NCBI RefSeq assembly: GCF_040183065.1
Contig: NC_091120.1
Location: 179,344,396-179,408,395 of the forward strand
Length of the DNA stretch: 64,000 nt
Source: Periplaneta americana
Lineage: Eukaryota > Arthropoda > Insecta > Blattodea > Blattidae
Direction of reading: 5' to 3'
The position numbers and the translations under genes are program-made. A model generated the notes under the pieces. That model saw only the letters and a list, made by a program, of their open reading frames with translations. It made no database searches and was not told the DNA's origin. Below are positions 7,527-64,000 of this stretch, one piece after another (the first letter of the stretch is position 1; each line of letters starts with the position of its first letter).

Positions 7527-10345
7527 AATTGTAGAGGAGTACAAGCAGCTGCAACTAGATTTTCAATCACAATTATTATAGAGGAGTAGAAGTAATCGCA
7601 ACTAGCTTTTCAATCATAATTATTATAGAGGAGTAGAAGTAGCCGCAACTAGCTTTTCAATCTTAATTATTGTAGAAAAGTAGAAGTAGCTGCAACTAGC
7701 TTTTCAATCATAATTATTGTAGAGGAGTACAAGCAGCTGCAACTAGCTTTTCAATCACAACTGCTGTAGAGAAGTATAAGTAGTCGCAACTAGCTTTGCA
7801 ATCACAATTATTGTAGAGGAGTAGAAGTAATCGCAACTAGCTTTTCAATCATAATCATTGTAGAGGAGTAGAAGTAGCCGCAACTAGCTTTTCAATCTTA
7901 ATTATTGTAGAGAAGTAGAAGTAGCTGCAACTAGCTTTTCAATCATAATTATTGTAGAGGAGTACAAGCAGCTGCAACTAGCTTTTCAATCACAACTGCT
8001 GTAGAGAAGTATAAGTAGTCGCAACTAGCTTTGCAATCACAATTATTGTAGAGGAGTAGAAGTAGTCGCAACTAGCTTTTCAATCCTAATTATTGTAGAA
8101 AAGTAGAAGTAGCTCCAACTAGCTTTTCAATCATAATTATTGTAGAGAAGTAGAAGTTGCAGAGGAGTATAAGTAACTGCAACTAGTTTTTCAATCAAAA
8201 CTAATGTGGAGGAGTAGAAGTGGCTGCAACTAGCTTTTCAATCATAATTATTGTAGAGGAATAGAAGTAGCTGCAACTAGCTTTTCAATCACAACTGCTG
8301 TAGAGAAGTATAAGTAGTCGCAACTAGCTTTGCAATCACAATTATCGTAGAGGAGTAGAAGTAATCGCAACTAGCTTTTCAATAATAATTATTGTAGAGG
8401 AGTAGAAGTAGCCGCAACTAGCTTTTCAATCTTAATTATTGTAGAAAAGTAGAAGTAGCTGCAACTAGCTTTTCAATCATAATTGTTGTAGAGTAGTACA
8501 AGCAGCTGCAACTAGCTTTTCAATCACAACTGCTGTAGAGAAGTATAAGTAGTCGCAACTAGCTTTGCAATCACAATTATTGTAGAGAAGTATAAGTAGT
8601 CGCAACTAGCTTTGCAATCACAATTATTGTAGAGGAGTAGAAGTAGTCGCAACTAGCTTTTCAATCATAATTATTGTAGAAAAGTAGAAGTAGCTCCAAC
8701 TAGCTTTTCAATCATAATTATTGTAGAGAAGTAGAAGTTGCAGAGGAGTATAGGTAACTGCAACTAGTTTTTCAATCAAAACTAATGTAGAGGAGTAGAA
8801 GTGGCTGCAACTAGCTTTTCAATCATAATTATTGTAGAGAAGTAGAAGTAGCTGCAACTAGCTTTTCAATCGCAACTGCTGTAGAGAAGTATAAGTAGTC
8901 GCAACTAGCTTTGCAATCACAATTATTGTAGAGGAGTAGAAGTAGTCGCAACTAGCTTTTCAATCATAATTATTGTAGAGGAGTAGAAGTAGCCGCAACT
9001 AGCTTTTCAATCATAATTATTGTAGAGGAATAGAAGTAGCTGCAACTAGCTTTTCAATCACAACTGCTGTAGAGAAGTATAAGTAGTCGCAACTAGCTTT
9101 GCAATCACAATTATTGTAGAGGAGTAGAAGTAATCGCAACTAGCTTTTCAATCATAATCATTGTAGAGGAGTAGAAGTAGCCGCAACTAGCTTTTCAATC
9201 TTAATTATTGTAGAGAAGTAGAAGTAGCTGCAACTAGCTTTTCAATCATAATTATTGTAGAGGAGTACAAGCAGCTGCAACTAGCTTTTCAATCACAACT
9301 GCTGTAGAGAAGTATAAGTAGTCGCAACTAGCTTTGCAATCACAATTATTGTAGAGGAGTAGAAGTAGTCGCAACTAGCTTTTCAATCTTAATTATTGTA
9401 GAAAAGTAGAAGTAGCTCCAACTAGCTTTTCAATCATAATTATTGTAGAGAAGTAGAAGTTGCAGAGGAGTATAAGTAACTGCAACTAGTTTTTCAATCA
9501 AAACTAATGTGGAGGAGTAGAAGTGGCTGCAACTAGCTTTTCAATCATAATTATTGTAGAGGAATAGAAGTAGCTGCAACTAGCTTTTCAATCACAACTG
9601 CTGTAGAGAAGTATAAGTAGTCGCAACTAGCTTTGCAATCACAATTATCGTAGAGGAGTAGAAGTAGTCGCAACTAGCTTTTCAATCATAATTACTGTAG
9701 AGGAGTAGAAGTAGCCGCAACTAGCTTTTCAATCTTAATTAGTGTAGAAAAGTAGAAGTAGCTGCAACTAGCTTTTCAATCATAATTATTGTAGAGAAGT
9801 AGAAGTAGCTGCAACTAGTTTTTCAATCAAAACTATTGCAGAGGAGTATAAGTAACTGCAACTAGTTTTCCAATCATAACTATTGTAGAGGAGTAGAAGC
9901 AGCTGCAACTTCCTTTTCAAGCACGACTATTGTAGAGGAGTTGAAGCAACTCCAACTAGCTTTTCAATCATAAGTATTGTAGAGGAGTTGAAGCAGCTCC
10001 AACTAACTTTTCAATCATAACTATTGTAGAGGAGTAGAAGCAGCTGCAACTAGCTTTTCAATCACAACTATTGTAGAGGAGTAGAAGCAGCTCCAACTAG
10101 CTTTTCAATCACAATTATTGTAGAGGAGTTGAAGTAACTCCAACTAACTCTTCAATCATAACTATTGTACAGGAGTAGAAGTATCTGCAACTAGTTTTTC
10201 AATCATAACTATTGTAGAGGACTAGAAGCAGCTCCAACTAACTTTTCAATCATAACTATTGTGGAGGAGTAGAAGCAGCTCGAACTAGCTTTTCAATCAT
10301 AACTATTGTAGAAGTTTAGAAGTGGCTGCAACTAGCTTTTCGAGC
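7527..10345. repeat. 47-bp satellite array, about 60 copies, with higher-order structure
   Basis: The monomer, containing CAACTAGCTTTTCAATCA and TTGTAGAGGAGTAGAAGTA, repeats every 47 bp. Some monomers carry a 17-bp extension (GAAGTTGCAGAGGAGTA). The variant ACTGCTGTAGAGAAG recurs at 7759, 7994, 8293, 8528, 8874, 9062, 9297 and 9596. The spacings are multiples of 47, or that plus 17. The right-hand third (after about 9830) is more diverged. The period is not a multiple of 3 and no long frame survives, so it is non-coding. Confidence 0.97.
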
Positions 10346-11340
10346 ATGAATTTTAAATTAATTGTTGTTCATCCACTAGTGTTTCAGTAGCCAGTGGGAA
10401 ATGGTAGTATCTGTCCAGATTGGAGCCAGTAAAGCGTATCGGCACACGACAGTTAGAAGAACGAAAGCGCAATTGCAACACGTTACTGTTAAGAAGAGGC
10501 TAATTAGTACGCTTCGGTTACTAATTAAATTTTGTGTTGGGATTAGTTGAATATAAATCAGTTGTCATATGGCGGACGTCCTTGAAAGTCTCTCTCTCTC
10601 CAAATATACATAATAATGATGAAAATAACATTGTGTATTACGAACTATACGCAGTAAAATCATTAAAAAGTATACAAATATTTTAAGGAAGGAAGATAAC
10701 AATGCCATAATCCTCTTGCTAAAGCAACAGCTGCGATAATGATGAGATTTCTTAAAGATATATTTCTGAACTCTTGAGTAAGAGATGGTATAAACGGCTG
10801 TGATTTCAGTTAACTATTCAATTTATTTACGCTATCTCCAAAACCCTCGGATTCTTACCGGCTGACAGAGTCCAGATTTCCTAGGAACTCAGCAGTTAGC
10901 GAACTATCCCTAGGATGTACTGGACAGACGTTCCATTCAATTTCCGGAGTAGGTATGTAAGTCTGTGGAAGGGGACTCAATTCAGATCGAGGGCTGTCCA
11001 GGGTTAGACATTGTTACGTTCGTTCATATGCAGACCTACACTTTTGCTCAACAGAGACCGAGCCTATAAAGGATTTATGAGAGAGAAAATTTCGACTTGG
11101 TCACCAGGATGATATGTAAGTTTTTATTCAACAGCCTTCCCCAACAAAATATGTTATTCATAAACAATAAGGCTAGGCCTATATGATATAAAAAATGAAA
11201 CTCAAAACATTGTATTATTTAGGGCCAAATTAAAGAAGTATCTAATTTCTCTCGCCTTTTATTCTGTAGGTGAATTCAAGATATTCAACAGCGCTTCATG
11301 CATTATCACTAATTCAGACGCTAAATAACCTAAGGCAGGC
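10346..11340. other. Sequence with no recognisable gene
   Basis: It lies between the satellite and the large palindrome. I found no conserved frame, tRNA-like boxes or long repeat. Confidence 0.45.
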
Positions 11341-11427
11341 ATGTCAATTGATTATTAAATAAATATATAATAAATTTCAATCTTAAGACATATCAACTTG
11401 CAAATGTTTATTTGCTATGTAATAACA

Positions 11428-11465
11428 ATATGAACGTTTTCGCCGTTTAGGGCATCTTCAGATAT
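11428..11465 (-). ncRNA. Minimal hammerhead ribozyme motif (left arm)
   Basis: Read on the minus strand: stem I strand AUAU, core CUGAAGA, stem II GCC/GGC closing a CUAAAC loop, core GAA, self-complementary stem III AACGUU, cleavage-site C, then stem I strand AUAU. This satisfies the CUGANGA...GAA core with U16.1 and an allowed H17. The palindromic stem III suggests cleavage as a dimer, as known for short retroelement hammerheads. Activity is untested. Confidence 0.65.
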
Positions 11466-12329
11466 AACAAAAAACATATAATCTGAACCTATAACAGTAA
11501 ATTATGCAAATGACAAAGAATAGAAAACAATATATGTAATACATAAGATTCATGAGCTATATGTAAATATGACATAATGCAGGATGAATATAGAGATAAT
11601 CTTTGGATTTTAAAATTAGACTAGACGAATATTTTATACATATAGCTCATGTTACAATTAAATATACAATGGTTAAAATTTGTCAATGATGTTAAAATTT
11701 AAAATTTATAATGATGATAATAAAATATTTTAGAGTAATCATAGCTGAGAATTGTCGTGAGTTACAAGATAGTTTGCGTAGCTGATGTTCGTGTATTTTG
11801 TAATTGTTTCATTTAGAGAGATCGTTGGCTTTTGAAATGGATGTTGTTTGACGATTGGTGACTACTCTAATTTGACATCCTATTACGTGTCAATAAACGT
11901 GATGACTCGTAATAGGATGTCAAATTAGAGTAGTCACCAATCGTCAAACAACATCCATTTCAAAAGCCAACGATCTCTCTAAATGAAACAATTACAAAAT
12001 ACATGAACATCAGCTACGCAAACTATCTTGTAACTCACGACAATTCTCAGCTATGATTACTCTAAAATATTTTATTATCATCATTATAAATTTTAAATTT
12101 TAACATCATTGACAAATTTTAACCATTGTATATTTAATTGTAACATGAGCTATATGTATAAAATATTCGTCTAGTCTAATTTTAAAATCCAAAGATTATC
12201 TCTATATTCATCCTGCATTATGTCATATTTACATATAGCTCATGAATCTTATGCATTACATATATTGTTTTCTATTCTTTGTCATTTGCATAATTTACTG
12301 TTATAGGTTCAGATTATATGTTTTTTGTT

Positions 12330-12367
12330 ATATCTGAAGATGCCCTAAACGGCGAAAACGTTCATAT
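12330..12367 (+). ncRNA. Minimal hammerhead ribozyme motif (right arm)
   Basis: Forward-strand mirror of the left-arm motif, with identical core, stem II, palindromic stem III and stem I. The predicted cleavage site is after C12363. Conservation in both arms follows from the palindrome and is not independent evidence. Confidence 0.65.
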
Positions 12368-12719
12368 TGTTATTACATAGCAAATGAACATTTGCAGGTT
12401 GATATGTCTTAAGATTGAAATTTATTATATACTTATTTAATAATTTACCAGGCATATTGATATATAAAATGAACTGTAAAAAAAATGTCAATTGATGCCC
12501 ACAGGAGCAAGCGCGCGCCTTAGAGCCCAGGAGAGCCTGAGCGCTTTACAGCGGAAAGGAAAGAGACAGACGAAAGAGGTGGCATATGCCGCTTGGACGA
12601 GCTATATTCAGGGATGGCCAGCACTGATTCAATAGACAAAGGGAAAATAACTTATTAAAACTGTATCCATGTTAATTTTTAGATTTGCCTGAGAAGTATA
12701 AATGCATTATAAGAATGTA

Positions 12720-15142: not shown

Positions 15143-15185
15143 ATATGTATGATAAGTACGTTCTTGTGTTAAATTTTAACGTACC

Positions 15186-15227
15186 TTGTTAACATGTTTC
15201 GACCTACTTTCGGTCATCTTCGGAACT
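15186..15227 (-). ncRNA. Degenerate hammerhead-like motif, Penelope-like left flank
   Basis: Minus strand: GUU, CCGAAGA, stem II GACC/GGUC, GAA, palindromic ACAUGU, U, AAC. It follows the same plan as the motif at 32522 but has C instead of the invariant U4 of CUGANGA, so catalysis is doubtful. The right flank (about 16028-16068, plus strand) has the same substitution. Confidence 0.5.
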
Positions 15228-15316
15228 GGTCGTTTTTGATCTTGGCGCCTCTTGTTTCCTGTGTGGGTGCGTTCGTAGTGTAGAGTCAAAGAGTCAACCA
15301 CCCCACACAACACAAA

Positions 15317-15899
15317 CAAGCTGTATTCCGAACAATGGTACACAGACTACTCAACATACCAACGAACCAACAGGATTACAACCAAGAACTAAACACAATC
15401 AAATACATAGCACAAGAAAACGGATACAACCCCAACATAATAGACAACAATACATAAGACAAAACAAAACCACAAAAAACAGAAGAATACAACACAAACA
15501 CAAGAACACAAAAAATACATCACACTAACATACGAAAACAAAAACACACATAAAATTGCAACCTCATTCAAGAAATTAAACTTCAACATCGCATACAGAA
15601 CAAATAACACTCTACAAAAACATCTCAACACACAAACAAACAAATACAACCACACAGGAGTATACAAACTCAAATGTAACACCTGCAACAACTTCTACAT
15701 AGGACAGACAGGCAGATCATTTCAAACACGTTACAAAGAACACATCACAGCCATAACAAAATTACAAAACACCTCCACATATGCAGAACACTTCACAAAT
15801 CCCAACCACATCTACAGAGACATCAACACAGACATGGAAATACTGCACATCCAACCAAAAAACCAGAAACTCAACACACTAGAACAATATGAAATATAG
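15317..15899 (+). pseudogene. Penelope-like polyprotein C-terminus with GIY-YIG endonuclease
   Basis: The first segment reads AVFRTMVHRLLNIP and TIKYIAQENGYNP, stopping at 15455. After a frameshift, from about 15516 a second frame runs through YITLTYENKN to the GIY-YIG domain. That domain has GVY at 15657-15665, a CNTC pair, YIG at 15696-15704, GRSFQTRYKEH, and LNTLEQYEI. This nuclease cuts target DNA for Penelope-like retrotransposition. An in-frame TAG at 15897 precedes RHTKTHPNDILNTQLNF, which looks like the true C-terminus. The RT domain is absent. Confidence 0.85.
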
Positions 15900-16984
15900 A
15901 GACACACGAAAACACACCCCAACGATATTCTCAACACAACTCAATTTCAAAACACATACACTCTTTGACTCTACACTACGAACGCACCCACACAGGAAAC
16001 AAGAGGCGCCAAGACCAACAACGACCAATTCCGAAGATGACCGAAAATAGGTCGAAACATGTTAACAAGGTACGTTAAAATTTAACACAAGAAAGTACTT
16101 ATCATACATATCATAAAAGCTGTGTAATCAAGATGTATAAAATAGCCTTATTTCATTAAGTTACATTATTTGCATCCTGTTATACACAAGCATAGTGACC
16201 TAATCCCCACCACGAAAGGAAATGAGATGCTGCCACAACGTGCTGGAATCTGGAACGCATTGGGTTTGCGACTTACCACGCTTCTCAACTGAGCGCCGGC
16301 CGGGGCCGATGTAATCCTCTGTAGAGTCTGGACCGCAAGTCGGACTAACGAGTTGCGACCCGGTAGCCTTTGTTTAGCAGGTATTAACAATTGAGCTACG
16401 AACTCTGGACCACCGGCTATCGATCCTCTTTCCTACTCTCCAACTGCAACCGCACACAATCCGTGTCTCGCGTGTGCCTAATCCGGCGAAGACGTGGAAT
16501 GCTAGCAGCAGCGGTCGTAATACAGTGGATGGACATCGCACTCCACCGCATACGAATCAAAGCTTTCGCAGGTTTCATGATCGAAGACCGTCCGCGGGAG
16601 GGTTTTAAAAAGAGAAAAAGATAACACAAAGAAAGGGGTTATACTGGTGACAGACTACAGTCGCTAATCGCGATTAGCTCCGATCGCGATTACCGAAAAT
16701 GTGGTGACACACTAGGTCCCGTCTGGTCAACAGCTGAATTACCATAGAGCAGACGTCTCCAAAAGCGTACTCACAAGTAAGCCCCTGAACGGAACCGAAG
16801 GCAGTACGTAATGAGCCGCTCCGCCTCACCCATCCCCAACTGTACTGTACTCAATGTTTATGCACAAACGAAGAGCAGTGGCGGACTGCCATTATCATTG
16901 TGTTGGTCGGAGTGTTCGACCGTTTCACAATGTCTTCTAGTCATGGACGTAGTACATTCAAGGATGAATAGGAAGAGACTTTTT

Positions 16985-17790: not shown

Positions 17791-18216
17791 CAAAATAATA
17801 CACAAACGTATGATATTTCTTATTCTTTTGATATTATTTGTAAACATAAGCACACCGTTGCCGCGATCCCCCACTGATCGCTCCCATCTGTTGAGGTACG
17901 AGTCTCTTTCCCTTACAGCACACTGTGTTCGGCGGGCTGCATCGAGAGCACGAAATACGATACGCTTTTTGGAGATCTCTGCCATAGAGGAAACAATTTT
18001 CTCTATGTACATACGTATATGTTTGTTTCCCTCCTGGACAACACCTAAAGCTCATACTTTCTTTTGATGTTTGTTCATTGTTTTTTTTTTTTTCCTTTTT
18101 TTGTTGTTTCTTGCAGCTTGATATGGGAATTTATTAGTTAAAATAATTATATGCTTTAGAACGTAAACTGATACAATTTATACGATGAAAGAGTAATGGA
18201 ACGGAGAAAAATTCTC

Positions 18217-18287
18217 TCCGGCGCCGGGATTTGAACCCGGGTTTTCAGCTCTACGTGCTGACGCTTTATCCACTAAGCCACACCGGA
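18217..18287 (-). repeat. tRNA-like cloverleaf of SINE, left arm
   Basis: A 71-nt fold: 7-bp acceptor TCCGGTG/CGCCGGA, 4-bp D stem GCTT/AAGC, perfect 5-bp anticodon stem TCAGC/GCTGA and T arm CCGGG-TTCAAAT-CCCGG. The loop ACGTAGA would give anticodon GTA, but position 33 is C where functional tRNAs have U. Its repeat context also argues for a SINE head and against a working tRNA gene. Confidence 0.75.
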
Positions 18288-18294
18288 TTCCACC

Positions 18295-18340
18295 CCGGGA
18301 TCCGACGGAATAAGACGGCGCTTATTCCGTCGGATCCCGG
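18295..18340. repeat. Perfect 20-bp-arm palindrome
   Basis: CCGGGATCCGACGGAATAAG is followed by the 6-nt loop ACGGCG and its exact reverse complement. It lies just inside the left SINE arm of the composite insertion, so it could form a strong RNA or DNA hairpin. Confidence 0.9.
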
Positions 18341-18487
18341 CCAACTAGTCACTCATTACACATTACATGTGTGGACTTCGGTCCTAGGTTCATAGATATC
18401 TATGACGTAGTGCAGAGGGCGGCCACTACAGGGAACCCAAGAGTTGGAACTTAAAACTGAGACGATTCTTCCGACGCCGGGGTGGAA

Positions 18488-18558
18488 TCCGGTGTGGCTT
18501 AGTGGATAAAGCGTTAGCACGTAGAGCTGAAAACCCGGGTTCAAATCCCGGCGCCGGA
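18488..18558 (+). repeat. tRNA-like cloverleaf of SINE, right arm
   Basis: Same 71-nt cloverleaf as the left arm in opposite orientation, with one change in the anticodon stem (TTAGC, giving a G-U pair). Box B (GGTTCAAAT) is intact, so a pol III internal promoter may be retained. Confidence 0.75.
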
Positions 18559-19028
18559 GAGAATTTTTCTCCGTTCCATTACTCTTTCATCGTATGATGA
18601 CGCAGAATATCTGCATGGAAATATCATATGTACTTCGGTACATTATAATAATATATATGATACAATTTATATAATTACTATTTATATTATTTTGAAAAGA
18701 GATTTCATAACCTATAAAATTTATATCATCATGCCAAAAATTTATATTATTTTGTAATAAAACATATTTTTAAAATCAACCCTAAACTCAACGATAGCTT
18801 CGTAATGGAGACTGGAATTGAAAATCTGAAAAAGAAACCAGTTCCAGTTTGTAATCCATTATTTACTGAAATGAAACATCTTTCAGCAGACTTCTATTGC
18901 TCTCTCTCTCTTTTTGTTCTGGAAACAGGATTTAGCTCCTGATCGCGATCGGGACGGTGACACACTACAAACCCAATCGCGATTAGGTCGATAATCACGA
19001 TTAGTGACTGTAGTCTGTCACCAGTATT

Positions 19029-32114: not shown

Positions 32115-32375
32115 TTTGTGCTGGATAACACCCATAGGCCAAGAAAAGTCCAGCATAGTGATACAATTAATGCAATAAAATTAACAACTATGGTACAAAT
32201 TAAATAATTGAGATAACAACAAAATGAAGAACATAGATTACAATGATTAATTTAACATTCTTACTGCATGGTTATAAATATAATCAGTGTGATAGTTATA
32301 TACAATAGAAGCGATTTAATACAGTTATATGAACACTTTTTAATGATTGAATAAAATTAATAAAATCGGTTAAAA

Positions 32376-32417
32376 ACCATACATGTTTCGGAGGAATGCT
32401 CCTCCATCTTCAGTGGT
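32376..32417 (-). ncRNA. Minimal hammerhead ribozyme motif (left arm)
   Basis: Mirror of the motif at 32522-32563, on the minus strand and with the same stems and core. Confidence 0.72.
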
Positions 32418-32521
32418 AGTACCACGATGCTGGTACAGATGTTCGACAGCGTAACGTAGCTTAAGGAAGACTGACTACGCTACGTTACGCGGTCGAACAT
32501 CTGTACCAGCGTCGTGGTACT

Positions 32522-32563
32522 ACCACTGAAGATGGAGGAGCATTCCTCCGAAACATGTATGGT
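32522..32563 (+). ncRNA. Minimal hammerhead ribozyme motif (right arm)
   Basis: Order: stem I strand ACCA, core CUGAAGA, a spacer U, stem II GGAGGA/UCCUCC with loop GCAU, core GAA, palindromic stem III ACAUGU, cleavage-site A32559, stem I strand UGGU. All invariant core bases (C3 U4 G5 A6, G8 A9, G12 A13 A14, U16.1) are present and the GUA cleavage triplet is permitted. The 6-nt self-complementary stem III implies dimeric cleavage, as known for short retroelement hammerheads. Confidence 0.75.
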
Positions 32564-32790
32564 TTTTAACCGATTTTATTAATTTTATTCAATCATTAAA
32601 AAGTGTTCATATAACTGTATTAAATCACTTCTATTGTATATAACTATCACACTCATGAACACTGTTGTATCGGACCTAACTTATGTAATTTAATAATCAG
32701 TGTGGTTGTGAAAATATAATTTATTGTCAATTAATACACCGAGGTCTCTAATACAATCTTTCTGTTAATTAATACATTTTTATATTATAG

Positions 32791-34900: not shown

Positions 34901-35369
34901 CAATAAGTGTTTTTATACAAATCTGGCTTTCAGGTAGTAGCTCCCTGTAAAGCAGGTTTGAATAATTTCAAGGGAAAATTGTTCCGGGGCCGGGTATCGA
35001 TCCCGGGACCCTTCGCTTAGCGCGCGAACGGTCTACCGACGGAGCTACCCCAAGAAATTATTCAAACCTGCTTTACAGGGAGCTACTACCTGAAAGCCAG
35101 ATTTGTATAATACATTCGTTACTGGAGGTACATTAACAGAAAGCCACAATTTAAAGTCACACAGTATAGTGTGCACTCACAGTTGAGTTCTGGCGTCTTG
35201 TCAGCTCATGTGAGTTGTATGGATATAAAAGGAAAAATTGTGACTGTGCTGTGTATAGTTCCTGGGGTAGCTCAGTCGGTAGAGCGTTCGCGCGCTAAGC
35301 GAAGGGTCCCGGGATCGATACCCGGCCCCGGAACAATTTTTCCTTGAAATTATTCAATAAGTGTTTTTA
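34901..35369. mobile_element. Composite inverted-SINE insertion with 15-bp TSD
   Basis: CAATAAGTGTTTTTA is duplicated at 34901-34915 and 35355-35369 around a 439-bp insert. The insert holds: a minus-strand tail plus tRNA-like head (34982-35051), an inverted second tail (about 35053-35112), about 145 bp of unique sequence, then a plus-strand head (35261-35332) with a short tail. Copy B keeps the uninterrupted site AACAATAACTGTTTTTATTC near 36757, so insertion as a single unit is demonstrated. Confidence 0.88.
35261..35332 (+). repeat. tRNA-like SINE head
   Basis: GGGGTAGCTCAGTCGGTAGA (box A, D arm), anticodon arm TTCGC-GCGCTAA-GCGAA, T arm CCGGG-ATCGATA-CCCGG, and a CTGGGG/CCCCGG acceptor. 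The T loop has ATCGATA in place of TTCGANA and position 33 is C. It is a SINE promoter and not a tRNA gene. The inverted partner is at 34982-35051. Confidence 0.7.
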
Positions 35370-61489: not shown

Positions 61490-64000
61490 TTGCTTGTATG
61501 CTGTCTATACTTCGCTTCGGTTTGGTTTATTCGTTGCTTCGGTTTGGTCCATTTGCTGCTTCGGTTTGGTCCATTGTTGCTTCATTTGTTGCTTCGGTTT
61601 GGTCCATTGTTGCTTCGTTTGTTGCTTCAGTTTGGTCCATTCATTGCTTAGGTTTGGTCCATTTGCTTCTTCGGTTTGTTCTATTCTTTGCTTCAGTTTG
61701 GTCCATTTGTTGCTTCGGTTTGGTCCATTGTTGCTTCATTTGTTGCTTCGGTTTGGTCCATTCATTGCTTAGGTTTGGTCCATTTGCTTCTTCGGTTTGT
61801 TCTATTCTTTGCTTCAGTTTGGTCCATTCGTTGCTTCGGTTTGGTCCATTTGTTGATTCATTTGTTGCTTCGGTTTGGTCCATTCATTGCTTAGGTTTGG
61901 TCCATTTGCTTCTTCGGTTTGTTCTATTCTTTGCTTCAGTTTGGTCCATTCGTTGCTTCGGTTTGGTCCATTTGTTGCTGTGTTTGTTGCTTCGGTTTGG
62001 TCCAATCATTGCTCTGGTTTTGTCCATTCGTTGCTTCGGTTTGGTCCATTCGTTGCTTCGGTTTGGTCCATTCGTTGCTTCGGTTTGGTCCATTCGTTGC
62101 TTTGGTTTCCTCCATTCGTTGTTTCGGTTTGATCAATTTGTTGCTCCGTTTGTTTATTCGGTTTGGTTCACCTTTTGTTTCGGTTTGGTCCATTCGTTGC
62201 TAGGCTTGATCCATACTTGCTTTGGTTTGGTCCCTTTGTTTCTTTGGTTTGGTCCATTTGTTGCTTCGGTTTGGTCCATTTGTTGCTTCGGTTTGGTCCA
62301 TTTGTTGCATCGGTTTGGTCCATTTGTCACTTCGGTTTGGTCCATTTGTCGCTTCGGTTTGGTCCATTTGTCGCTTCGGTTTGGTCCATTTGTCGCTTCG
62401 GTTTGGTCCATTCGTTGCTTCAGTTTCGTCCATTCGTTGCTTCGGTTTCGTCCATTCGTTGCTTCGATTTGGTCCATTCGTTGCTTCGGTTTGGTCCATT
62501 CGTTGCTTCGGTTTGGTCCATTCGTTGCTTCGGTTTCGTCCATTCGTTGATTCGGTTTGGTCAATTCGTTGATTCGGTTTCGTCCATTCGTTGCTTAGGT
62601 TTGGTCCATTCGTTGTTTCGGTTTGGTCAATTTGTTACTTCGGTTTGGTCCATTCGTTGCTTCGGTTTGGTCCATTCGTTGCTTCGGTTTCGTCCATTCG
62701 TTGATTCGGTTTGGTCAATTCGTTGATTCGGTTTCGTCCATTCGTTGCTTAGGTTTGGTCCATTCGTTGTTTCGGTTTGGTCAATTTGTTACTTCGGTTT
62801 GGTCCATTCGTTGCTTCGGTTTAGTCCATTCGTCACTTCGGTTTGGTCCATTCGTTGCTTCGGTTTCGTCCATTCGTTGCTTCGGTTTCGTCCATTCGTT
62901 GCTTCGGTTTCGTCCATTCGTTGCTTTGGTTTCCTCCATTCGTTGCTTCGGTTTGGTCCATTCGTTGCTTCGGTTTCGTGCATTCGTTGCTTCGGTTTGG
63001 TCCATTCGTTGCTTCGGTTTGGTCCATTCGTTGCTTCGGTTTGGTCCATTCGTTGCTTCGGTTTCGTCCATTCGTTGCTTCGGTTTCGTCCATTCGTTGC
63101 TTCGGTTTCGCCCATTCGTTGCTTCGGTTTCGTCCATTCGTTGCTTTGGTTTGGTCCATTTGTTGCTTCGGTTTGGTCAAAATTTGTTACTTCGGTTTGG
63201 TCCATTCGTTGCTTTGGTTTCCTCCATTCGTTGCTTCGGTTTGGTCAAAATTTGTTGCTTCGGTTTGGTCAAAATTTGTTACTTCGGTTTCGTCCATTCG
63301 TTGCTTTGGTTTCCTCCATTCGTTGCTTCGGTTTGGTCCATTCGTTGCTTCGGTTTCGTGCATTAGTTGCTTCGGTTTGGTCCATTCGTTGCTTCGGTTT
63401 GGTTCATTCGTTGCTTCGGTTTCGCCCATTCGTTGCTTCGGTTTCGTCCATTCGTTGCTTCGGTTTGGTTCATTCGTTGCTTCGGTTTGGTCCATTCGTT
63501 GCTTCGGTTTGGTTCATTCGTTGCTTCGGTTTGGTCCATTCGTTGCTTCGGTTTCGTCCATTCGTTGCTTCGGTTTCGCCCATTCGTTGCTTCGGTTTCG
63601 TCCATTCGTTGCTTCGGTTTGGTCCATTCGTTGCTTCGGTTTCGTCCATTCGTTGCTTTGGTTTCCTCCATTCGTTGCTTCGGTTTGGTCCATTCGTTGC
63701 TTCGGTTTGGTCCATTCGTTGCTTCGGTTTGGTCCATTCGTTGCTTCGGTTTGGTCCATTCGTTGCTTTGGTTTGGTCCATTTGTTGCTTCGGTTTGGTC
63801 AAAATTTGTTACTTCGGTTTGGTCCATTCGTTGCTTCGGTTTGATCCATTCTTTATGTGATGCTTCGAATTGGCCTATTCGTTGCTTCGATTTGATACTG
63901 AACTTCAAAAATAAAACAACAAATGTCTCAGGACTCAAGAGGGTATATCTGATACTTCGGTTTGGTCTATCTTATATTTCGGTTTGTTCCTTTCGTTGCT
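61490..64000. repeat. 22-bp minisatellite, about 105 copies, free of stops
   Basis: Unit TTGCTTCGGTTTGGTCCATT plus CG (22 bp), with variants TTTCGTCC, TTTCCTCC, TTTGTTGC and AAAATTTGTTAC. Order is good from about 61510 to 63850. It then degrades, but related words continue to the window edge. Since 22 is not a multiple of 3, every frame cycles through the same 22-residue pattern. Plus frames give SLLRFGPFVASVWSIRC, minus frames MDQTEATNGPNRSNEW. Open frames up to 371 codons result and are not evidence of a gene. Confidence 0.96.

Follow-up and report, generated by a model that had tools for sequence, protein, structure and literature searches.

The near-perfect palindrome at positions 11341–12496 of the window (the whole 64-kb stretch of Periplaneta americana DNA that was analysed), termed E1, probably arose when a non-autonomous Penelope-like element (PLE) with internal deletions inserted once, by two-ended target priming. 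Elements of this kind are known, and the new part is the reading of the mechanism. On balance we favour the general form of this reading, namely that PLEs insert by two-ended target-primed reverse transcription with one fixed, adjacent start per end and with sealing by microhomology, and that this single reaction yields, as by-products, inverted pLTRs, the one-sided tail and hammerhead palindromes.

Anatomy of E1 and its coding relatives

A first-pass annotation of the window had described a palindrome with 535-bp arms around a 20-bp spacer, flanked by a 12-bp target site duplication (TSD). The inverted arms are real, but they measure 542 nt with 6 mismatches and enclose a loop of 10 nt. The TSD was correctly called and consists of two exact copies, of which the left one is overlapped by the left arm at positions 11351–11352. 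A 40-nt tail, which is absent from that annotation, is found on the right side only. As the right TSD begins 40 nt past the arm, E1 is asymmetric and consists of arm, arm and tail. The features of E1 are listed below; coordinates marked U refer to the reference, which is one copy (L009).

11341–11352, no strand: left TSD ATGTCAATTGAT, identical to the 12 bp at 12485–12496
11351–11892, minus strand: left arm, an inverted tailless PLE 3′ region/pLTR (U3265–4195 without U3345–3734)
11428–11465, minus strand: left-arm hammerhead-like motif (descriptor scan)
11893–11902, no strand: loop or joint between the arms, with a 3-nt microhomology
11903–12444, plus strand: right arm, PLE 3′ region/pLTR (U3252–4194 without U3345–3734)
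12330–12367, plus strand: right-arm hammerhead-like motif (descriptor scan), with predicted cleavage after C12363
12445–12484, plus strand: one-sided tail, the start of the PLE open reading frame (ORF), with A residues at its end (match to U1 onward, L009 ORF)
12485–12496, no strand: right TSD ATGTCAATTGAT, identical to the 12 bp at 11341–11352

The match of the right arm to U starts at ~11890 and thus takes in the loop. The tail and the last codons of the arm read NNLPGILIYKMNCK (translated by eye), and the tail corresponds to U1 onward, i.e., to the ORF start, which is the published signature of PLE tails. No open frame of at least 120 aa overlaps E1. Having no coding capacity of its own, E1 is therefore a non-autonomous derivative.

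Two further insertions are present in the window:

15143–16142, plus strand: E2, a second PLE insertion (arms 15143–15294 and 15960–16111, 152 nt, 97%)
15188–15223, minus strand, and 16031–16065, plus strand: E2 motif cores with U4 changed to C (descriptor scan)
15444–15899, plus strand: E2 open frame (stop to stop) with a GIY-YIG motif
32283–32694, plus strand: E3, a third insertion (arms 32283–32463 and 32476–32656, 181 nt, 97%)
32376–32413, minus strand, and 32526–32563, plus strand: E3 motif cores (descriptor scan)

Both carry a tail on the right only, which in E2 follows position 16111 (its end is approximate) and in E3 runs to about 32694. The E2 frame is 43% identical to the L009 PLE over 101 aa, and a Pfam search with it returned nothing at E 0.01. 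With a GIY-YIG frame in E2 and three hammerhead-bearing inverted-repeat elements, the neighbourhood thus points to PLEs. Elsewhere in the window, a tRNA-Tyr-like pair at 18180–18595 is inverted head-to-head (arms of 126 nt, 97%, 164 nt apart), a layout shared with the PLE copies, and is possibly a two-armed tRNA-derived SINE. Nested inverted repeats of 99 and 62 nt lie at 34913–35357, with a tRNA-Ser-like sequence at 35261–35334, and large tandem arrays are found at 61514–63851 (22-bp units) and 7528–10341 (47-bp units).

A search of the cockroach's own genome (3.23 Gb) with E1 gave 1346 first-look candidates, of which the best 40 were scored. Reverse transcriptase (RT) and GIY-YIG sequence is present in relatives of about 98% identity. 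In L010 this sequence, with broken frames, lies between E1-type inverted arms, and in L009 it lies between direct arm copies; pLTRs are accordingly seen in both arrangements. The RT piece of L010 matched Pfam RVT_1 (E 2.5e-9), and its best PDB matches, which are weak (E 0.007), were telomerase RT; the RT piece of L009 had no Pfam match. An RT of the PLE/telomerase-like type is thus found in the relatives and not in E1. The GIY-YIG motifs read GIYMLKC..YIGQTKR in L009 and GVYKLKC..YIGQTGR in E2; a Pfam search at E 0.01 detected no such domain, and the C-terminal GIY-YIG domain that marks EN-containing PLEs was assigned by motif and mutual alignment only. Other short copies share the deletion of U3345–3734 with the E1 arms, and in most of them U3132–3230, a stretch outside the E1 arms, is missing as well.

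E1 thus has PLE arms, a one-sided 40-nt tail from the ORF start (30–40 nt in PLEs), a TSD and coding relatives in its own genome. The Penelope link that had been proposed for it is strongly supported by the arms shared with copies in which they stand beside RT/GIY-YIG sequence, by the PLE tail and by the TSDs.

Ends, joints and target sites of dispersed copies

The E1-family sample comprises 38 loci (37 fetched plus E1) from the best 40 of the 1346 candidates and is not random; each query contributed its 40 best-scoring candidates out of more than 1000. As the queries contained the tail, selection accounts in part for every copy having one or more tails. Nineteen loci are two-armed, 15 are one-armed within the fetched stretch, and four are irregular: L020 continues into the ORF, inverted pieces of the body are found in L024 and L025, and L027 lacks the right end.

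In all 19 two-armed copies the tail is found on exactly one arm, never on both and never on neither. The outer ends of these copies are constant, lying at U4230–4240 for the tailed arm and at U4190–4203 for the tailless arm. The tailed-end alignment of E1 extends to U4246, and the right arm of L035 is the tail alone. The inner ends vary, with 18 distinct values on the left and 19 on the right. In 12 of the 19 copies the tailless arm exceeds the tailed one in length, by 12 nt in L012 and by at least 73 nt in the other 11 (the arm lengths of L019 and L035 were taken from the locus alignments; the joint table gives small pieces for both). The tailed arm is longer in the remaining seven, among them E1 (by 13 nt).

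Seven of the one-armed loci have the tail and eight lack it, and the single-armed tailless copies often have no obvious TSD by eye. Two of the seven, L032 and L034, lie ~20 Mb apart on one contig with an identical E1-family insertion and identical flanks and represent a segmental or assembly duplicate. Two other one-armed loci, L029 and L030, carry inverted stubs of 18 and 26 nt at the inner end, and L019 has a similar small piece. Among the 15 loci of the short E1 subfamily (L029–L043), 10 have an arm end at U3087–3098, away from the hammerhead cut, which looks like an RNA 5′ end.

The exact microhomology at the joints of the 19 two-armed copies has a mean of 2.3 nt, compared to 0.85 nt at random joints, and reaches at least 3 nt in 8 copies (random joints, 8.5%). 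Four of the 19 joints (L012, L033, L036, L039) show 1–33 extra nt and no microhomology. The two arms of a copy, compared with regard to an origin from the same RNA, are each other's best match in 6 of 16 testable copies. A TSD of at least 8 nt was detected in 15 of the 19 copies, compared to 2 of 342 swapped-flank controls; the right end of E1 was set by hand in this comparison.

The E3 family (39 fetched loci plus E3) shows the same one-sidedness. A left arm is present in 30 loci, and its outer end lies at q180–187 in 24 of them (L057 was mis-scored, and another alignment gives 181). None of the 30 has the tail at the outer left end, and all 30 right arms end at q230–237. TSDs of at least 8 nt were found in 24 of the 30, against 20 of 870 swapped-flank controls. 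Symmetric two-arm copies are common in this family, and L052 and L060 have an additional inner inverted piece that carries the tail. One E3-family locus, L067, contains 17 tandem repeats of q13–75 at a spacing of 91 or 80 nt (912–2645), followed by a full right arm.

In the E2 family (eight fetched loci plus E2), five of the nine loci are two-armed. A single arm carries the tail in each of them (in L092 the tail is partial), and the tailless arm is longer in four of these five; the other four loci show one arm within the 1.8–2.0 kb fetched. The match ends of the E2 query are two-peaked, with 25 of 40 non-self rows at q232–240 and 15 at q256–265. This is compatible with two start sites, but it is given no weight, as a deletion in the E2 tail relative to copies such as L085 could stop alignments near q232.

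Long inverted arms with a TSD could also be produced by a DNA foldback or MITE-type transposon, a local inverted duplication or an assembly artefact. We consider an origin of this kind most improbable, since the same anatomy recurs at dispersed loci with their own TSDs, the tail is one-sided and holds the start of a PLE ORF, and coding PLE relatives exist. In E1 itself, the 40-nt right-only tail means that the inverted repeats do not extend symmetrically up to the TSD. A foldback/MITE origin was rejected on the coding relatives and the one-sided tail.

Proposed two-ended target priming

In the published self-priming (snap-back) scheme, one cDNA or antisense RNA folds back and copies itself into an inverted arm. 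It has been proposed for rotifer Penelope palindromes (Arkhipova et al., 2013; PMC3846280), in the accessible part of which self-priming is inferred most likely on an antisense template and the template strand is left open. E1, with arms halting 13 nt apart, and L014 (23 nt) are compatible with a short-loop snap-back, and the small inner-end pieces of L029, L030 and L019 look like its products. Self-priming requires, however, that the copied arm is contained in the template, and in 12 of the 19 two-armed E1-family copies the tailless arm holds sequence that is absent from the tailed arm. Nor does it predict that the tailless arm should have a constant outer end, and the tail is absent from that arm in 19 of 19 copies. 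As the tailless arm is longer in those 12 copies and lacks the tail, neither arm can have templated the other, so that two RNA-templated syntheses, begun at two fixed starts, are required. Snap-back is rejected for these 12 asymmetric copies and is overall an unlikely explanation. For E1 alone it is not rejected, as a single copy with the tailed arm longer by so little does not separate self-priming from two-ended priming.

Two-ended target priming would proceed as follows. The PLE nuclease would make a staggered double-strand cut that leaves protruding 3′ ends of about 12 nt, and each 3′ end would prime reverse transcription on PLE RNA. One end would start at the end of the tail (site 1) and the other ~40 nt further upstream, where the pLTR ends (site 2). 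Both cDNAs would extend inward, halt at independent points and be joined, often via short microhomology, and fill-in would yield the TSD. If their stopping points happen to lie close together, as in E1, the result would be a near-perfect palindrome. What the copies show are fixed outer starts, a single tail in each two-armed copy, TSDs and joint microhomology; that each DNA end has its own start site, that the 3′ ends protrude and that one enzyme complex serves both is our inference.

A precedent is provided by the PLE Poseidon PAc of Anolis carolinensis. In the part of that study accessible to us (PMC11167929), two adjacent internal sites serve as starts for reverse transcription, with the tail being the stretch between them, and in vitro the PLE protein cuts both strands of the target and extends them. 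Two-ended priming is thus the simplest reading. The E1 family resembles PAc in having a tail bounded by two RT starts and a hammerhead upstream of the RT start. The accessible part of the PAc paper draws no connection between two-strand extension and inverted copies, and it gives no difference in start site between the strands, which counts against our reading. Also against it are the longer tailed arm in 7 of 19 copies, the one-armed (15/38) and irregular (4/38) loci, the snap-back-like pieces in L029, L030 and L019, the 4 of 19 joints without microhomology, and the tail-bearing inner inverted pieces in the E3-family loci L052 and L060.

The accessible part of PMC3846280 gives the typical Penelope structure as an inverted pLTR, a TSD and a one-sided tail of 31 bp. 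Like Pen2a of A. vaga (31-bp tail on one pLTR, TSD of 9 bp) and Penelope of D. virilis, the elements described here combine an inverted pLTR beside a direct pLTR with a one-sided tail, a TSD, and GIY-YIG and RT sequence. Unlike these, E1 has no coding sequence at all and its arms are nearly equal. The comparison of inner and outer ends across many copies, made here for the E1 family, goes beyond that work as far as its accessible part extends. In an incomplete literature collection, partly in excerpt, our searches found no two-ended explanation for inverted PLE copies, and the accessible part of PMC12910113 contains nothing on inverted Penelope copies.

The hammerhead motif and the palindrome as a proposed unit

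The first-pass annotation had placed a hammerhead ribozyme in each arm, and the motif is indeed present at 12330–12367 on the plus strand and 11428–11465 on the minus strand. It reads AUAU-CUGAAGA-U-GCC-CUAAAC-GGC-GAA-AACGUU-C-AUAU, with a 4-bp stem I, the CUGAAGA core, an extra U before stem II, the GCC/GGC stem II and the palindromic AACGUU. The elements of a minimal type I hammerhead (CUGANGA core, stem II, GAA, palindromic stem III, H17 and stem I) are all found, and the motif is a candidate ribozyme. A descriptor scan of the 64-kb window, in which U4 may be C and the extra nucleotide is optional, gave six places, two in each of E1, E2 and E3. All six have the extra nucleotide, and stem I has at least 3 bp in five. 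The same scan of 100 first-order Markov random windows gave one match, and none with a stem I of at least 3 bp. In 37 E1-family loci, 41 of 54 motif instances keep the core, stems II and III and all four stem I pairs, a figure that includes inheritance from the source element. Minimal type I (dimer) hammerheads of PLEs were reportedly described by Cervera and de la Pena in 2014 and by Lunse et al. in 2017, and an extra U at this position is said, after de la Pena and Flores in 2001, to be tolerated or even favourable.

The motifs resemble the minimal type I (dimer) PLE hammerheads as described in the accessible part of PMC7761336 in their short stem III, their location in the pLTR and a cleavage that is thought to occur as dimers. 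The extra U before stem II, present in six of six, is a possible difference from the published forms, and the motifs may be active. The Rfam search suggested as a check gave no hammerhead match, neither in the whole window at the gathering threshold nor in 11100–12700 with E up to 10. Matches to microRNA models in Rfam, with scores below gathering, were rejected as a consequence of the palindrome.

We also searched the genome with a pattern of the E2/E3-type hammerhead, CTGAAGATG-N8-22-CGAAACATGT, which gave 2958 + 3017 matches compared to 0 + 0 for the reversed control. Among the 100 matches listed (all on contig C1), there are 21 neighbouring pairs within 2.5 kb, of which 19 are head-to-head. 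Of these 100 matches, 89 have a fully paired stem II (shuffled mean 63, maximum 72; 2000 shuffles), and covariation is seen in that 23 of their 33 distinct inserts are fully paired (shuffled mean 14.6, maximum 21; 5000 shuffles).

In the predicted fold of the E1 transcript, each of the 38 motif bases is paired with a base of the other arm. With the hammerhead buried in the duplex, a transcript of the palindrome itself should therefore not self-cleave. In predicted minimum-energy homodimers, the E3 motif takes the hammerhead fold with stem III formed between the molecules, and neither the E1 homodimer nor the E1 arm end adopts it. In the three window elements the motif lies in the pLTR, 48–88 nt upstream of site 2. 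The probable substrate of the hammerhead is tandem or dimeric PLE RNA, not the palindrome itself. The hammerhead of PAc is active only with the protein and is dispensable for insertion in vitro, as stated in the accessible part of PMC11167929.

These observations bear on the earlier proposal of a non-autonomous retroelement consisting solely of inverted hammerhead repeats, and on the related reading that the palindrome itself replicates, retrozyme-like, and spreads in the form of a 1.1-kb RNA hairpin. The short subfamily to which E1 belongs is amplified and has deletions in common, and symmetric two-arm copies are frequent in the E3 family, both of which would suit such a unit. Like the retrozymes (plant LTR and animal non-LTR; PMC4918200 and PMC7761336, as far as accessible), E1 is short, non-coding and hammerhead-bearing, and its RT is presumably borrowed. 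Unlike retrozymes, in which two hammerheads in direct repeats flank the unit, E1 has its hammerheads inverted. A genome-wide search for copies with the same ends and TSDs had been suggested as a check; the copies sampled have constant outer ends, mostly TSDs of their own, and varied inner ends. The E1 joint was found in no other locus among the best 40 of the 1346 candidates; the relatives have joints placed differently or a single arm. L030 (also listed as L004) matches positions 513–1140 of the query at 94% and aligns about 40 nt beyond the E1 joint, its own joint having inner ends at U3279/U3231 compared to 3265/3252 in E1. The predicted fold of such a transcript would bury the hammerhead, and E1 lacks the region past the tail (first 172 nt of the ORF) that is required by the studied PLE protein according to the accessible part of PMC11167929. 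As a replicating unit the proposed retroelement is thus unsupported; we regard this origin as quite unlikely, and the view of the palindrome as the mobile unit is probably wrong. The palindrome appears to have arisen from a single insertion event of a non-autonomous PLE subfamily that carries internal deletions.

Taken together, inverted pLTRs with a tail on one side occur in many PLE copies, and the published inference that we found for them, in sources accessible in part, is self-priming on an antisense template. The copies analysed here contradict it for 12 of 19 two-armed E1-family copies and for 4 of 5 in the E2 family, and point to a reaction distinct from the one-ended priming of LINE type. 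Two-ended priming can be tested directly with the PLE protein that already works in vitro, and it would explain the origin of long hammerhead-bearing palindromes in animal genomes without any mobility of their own.
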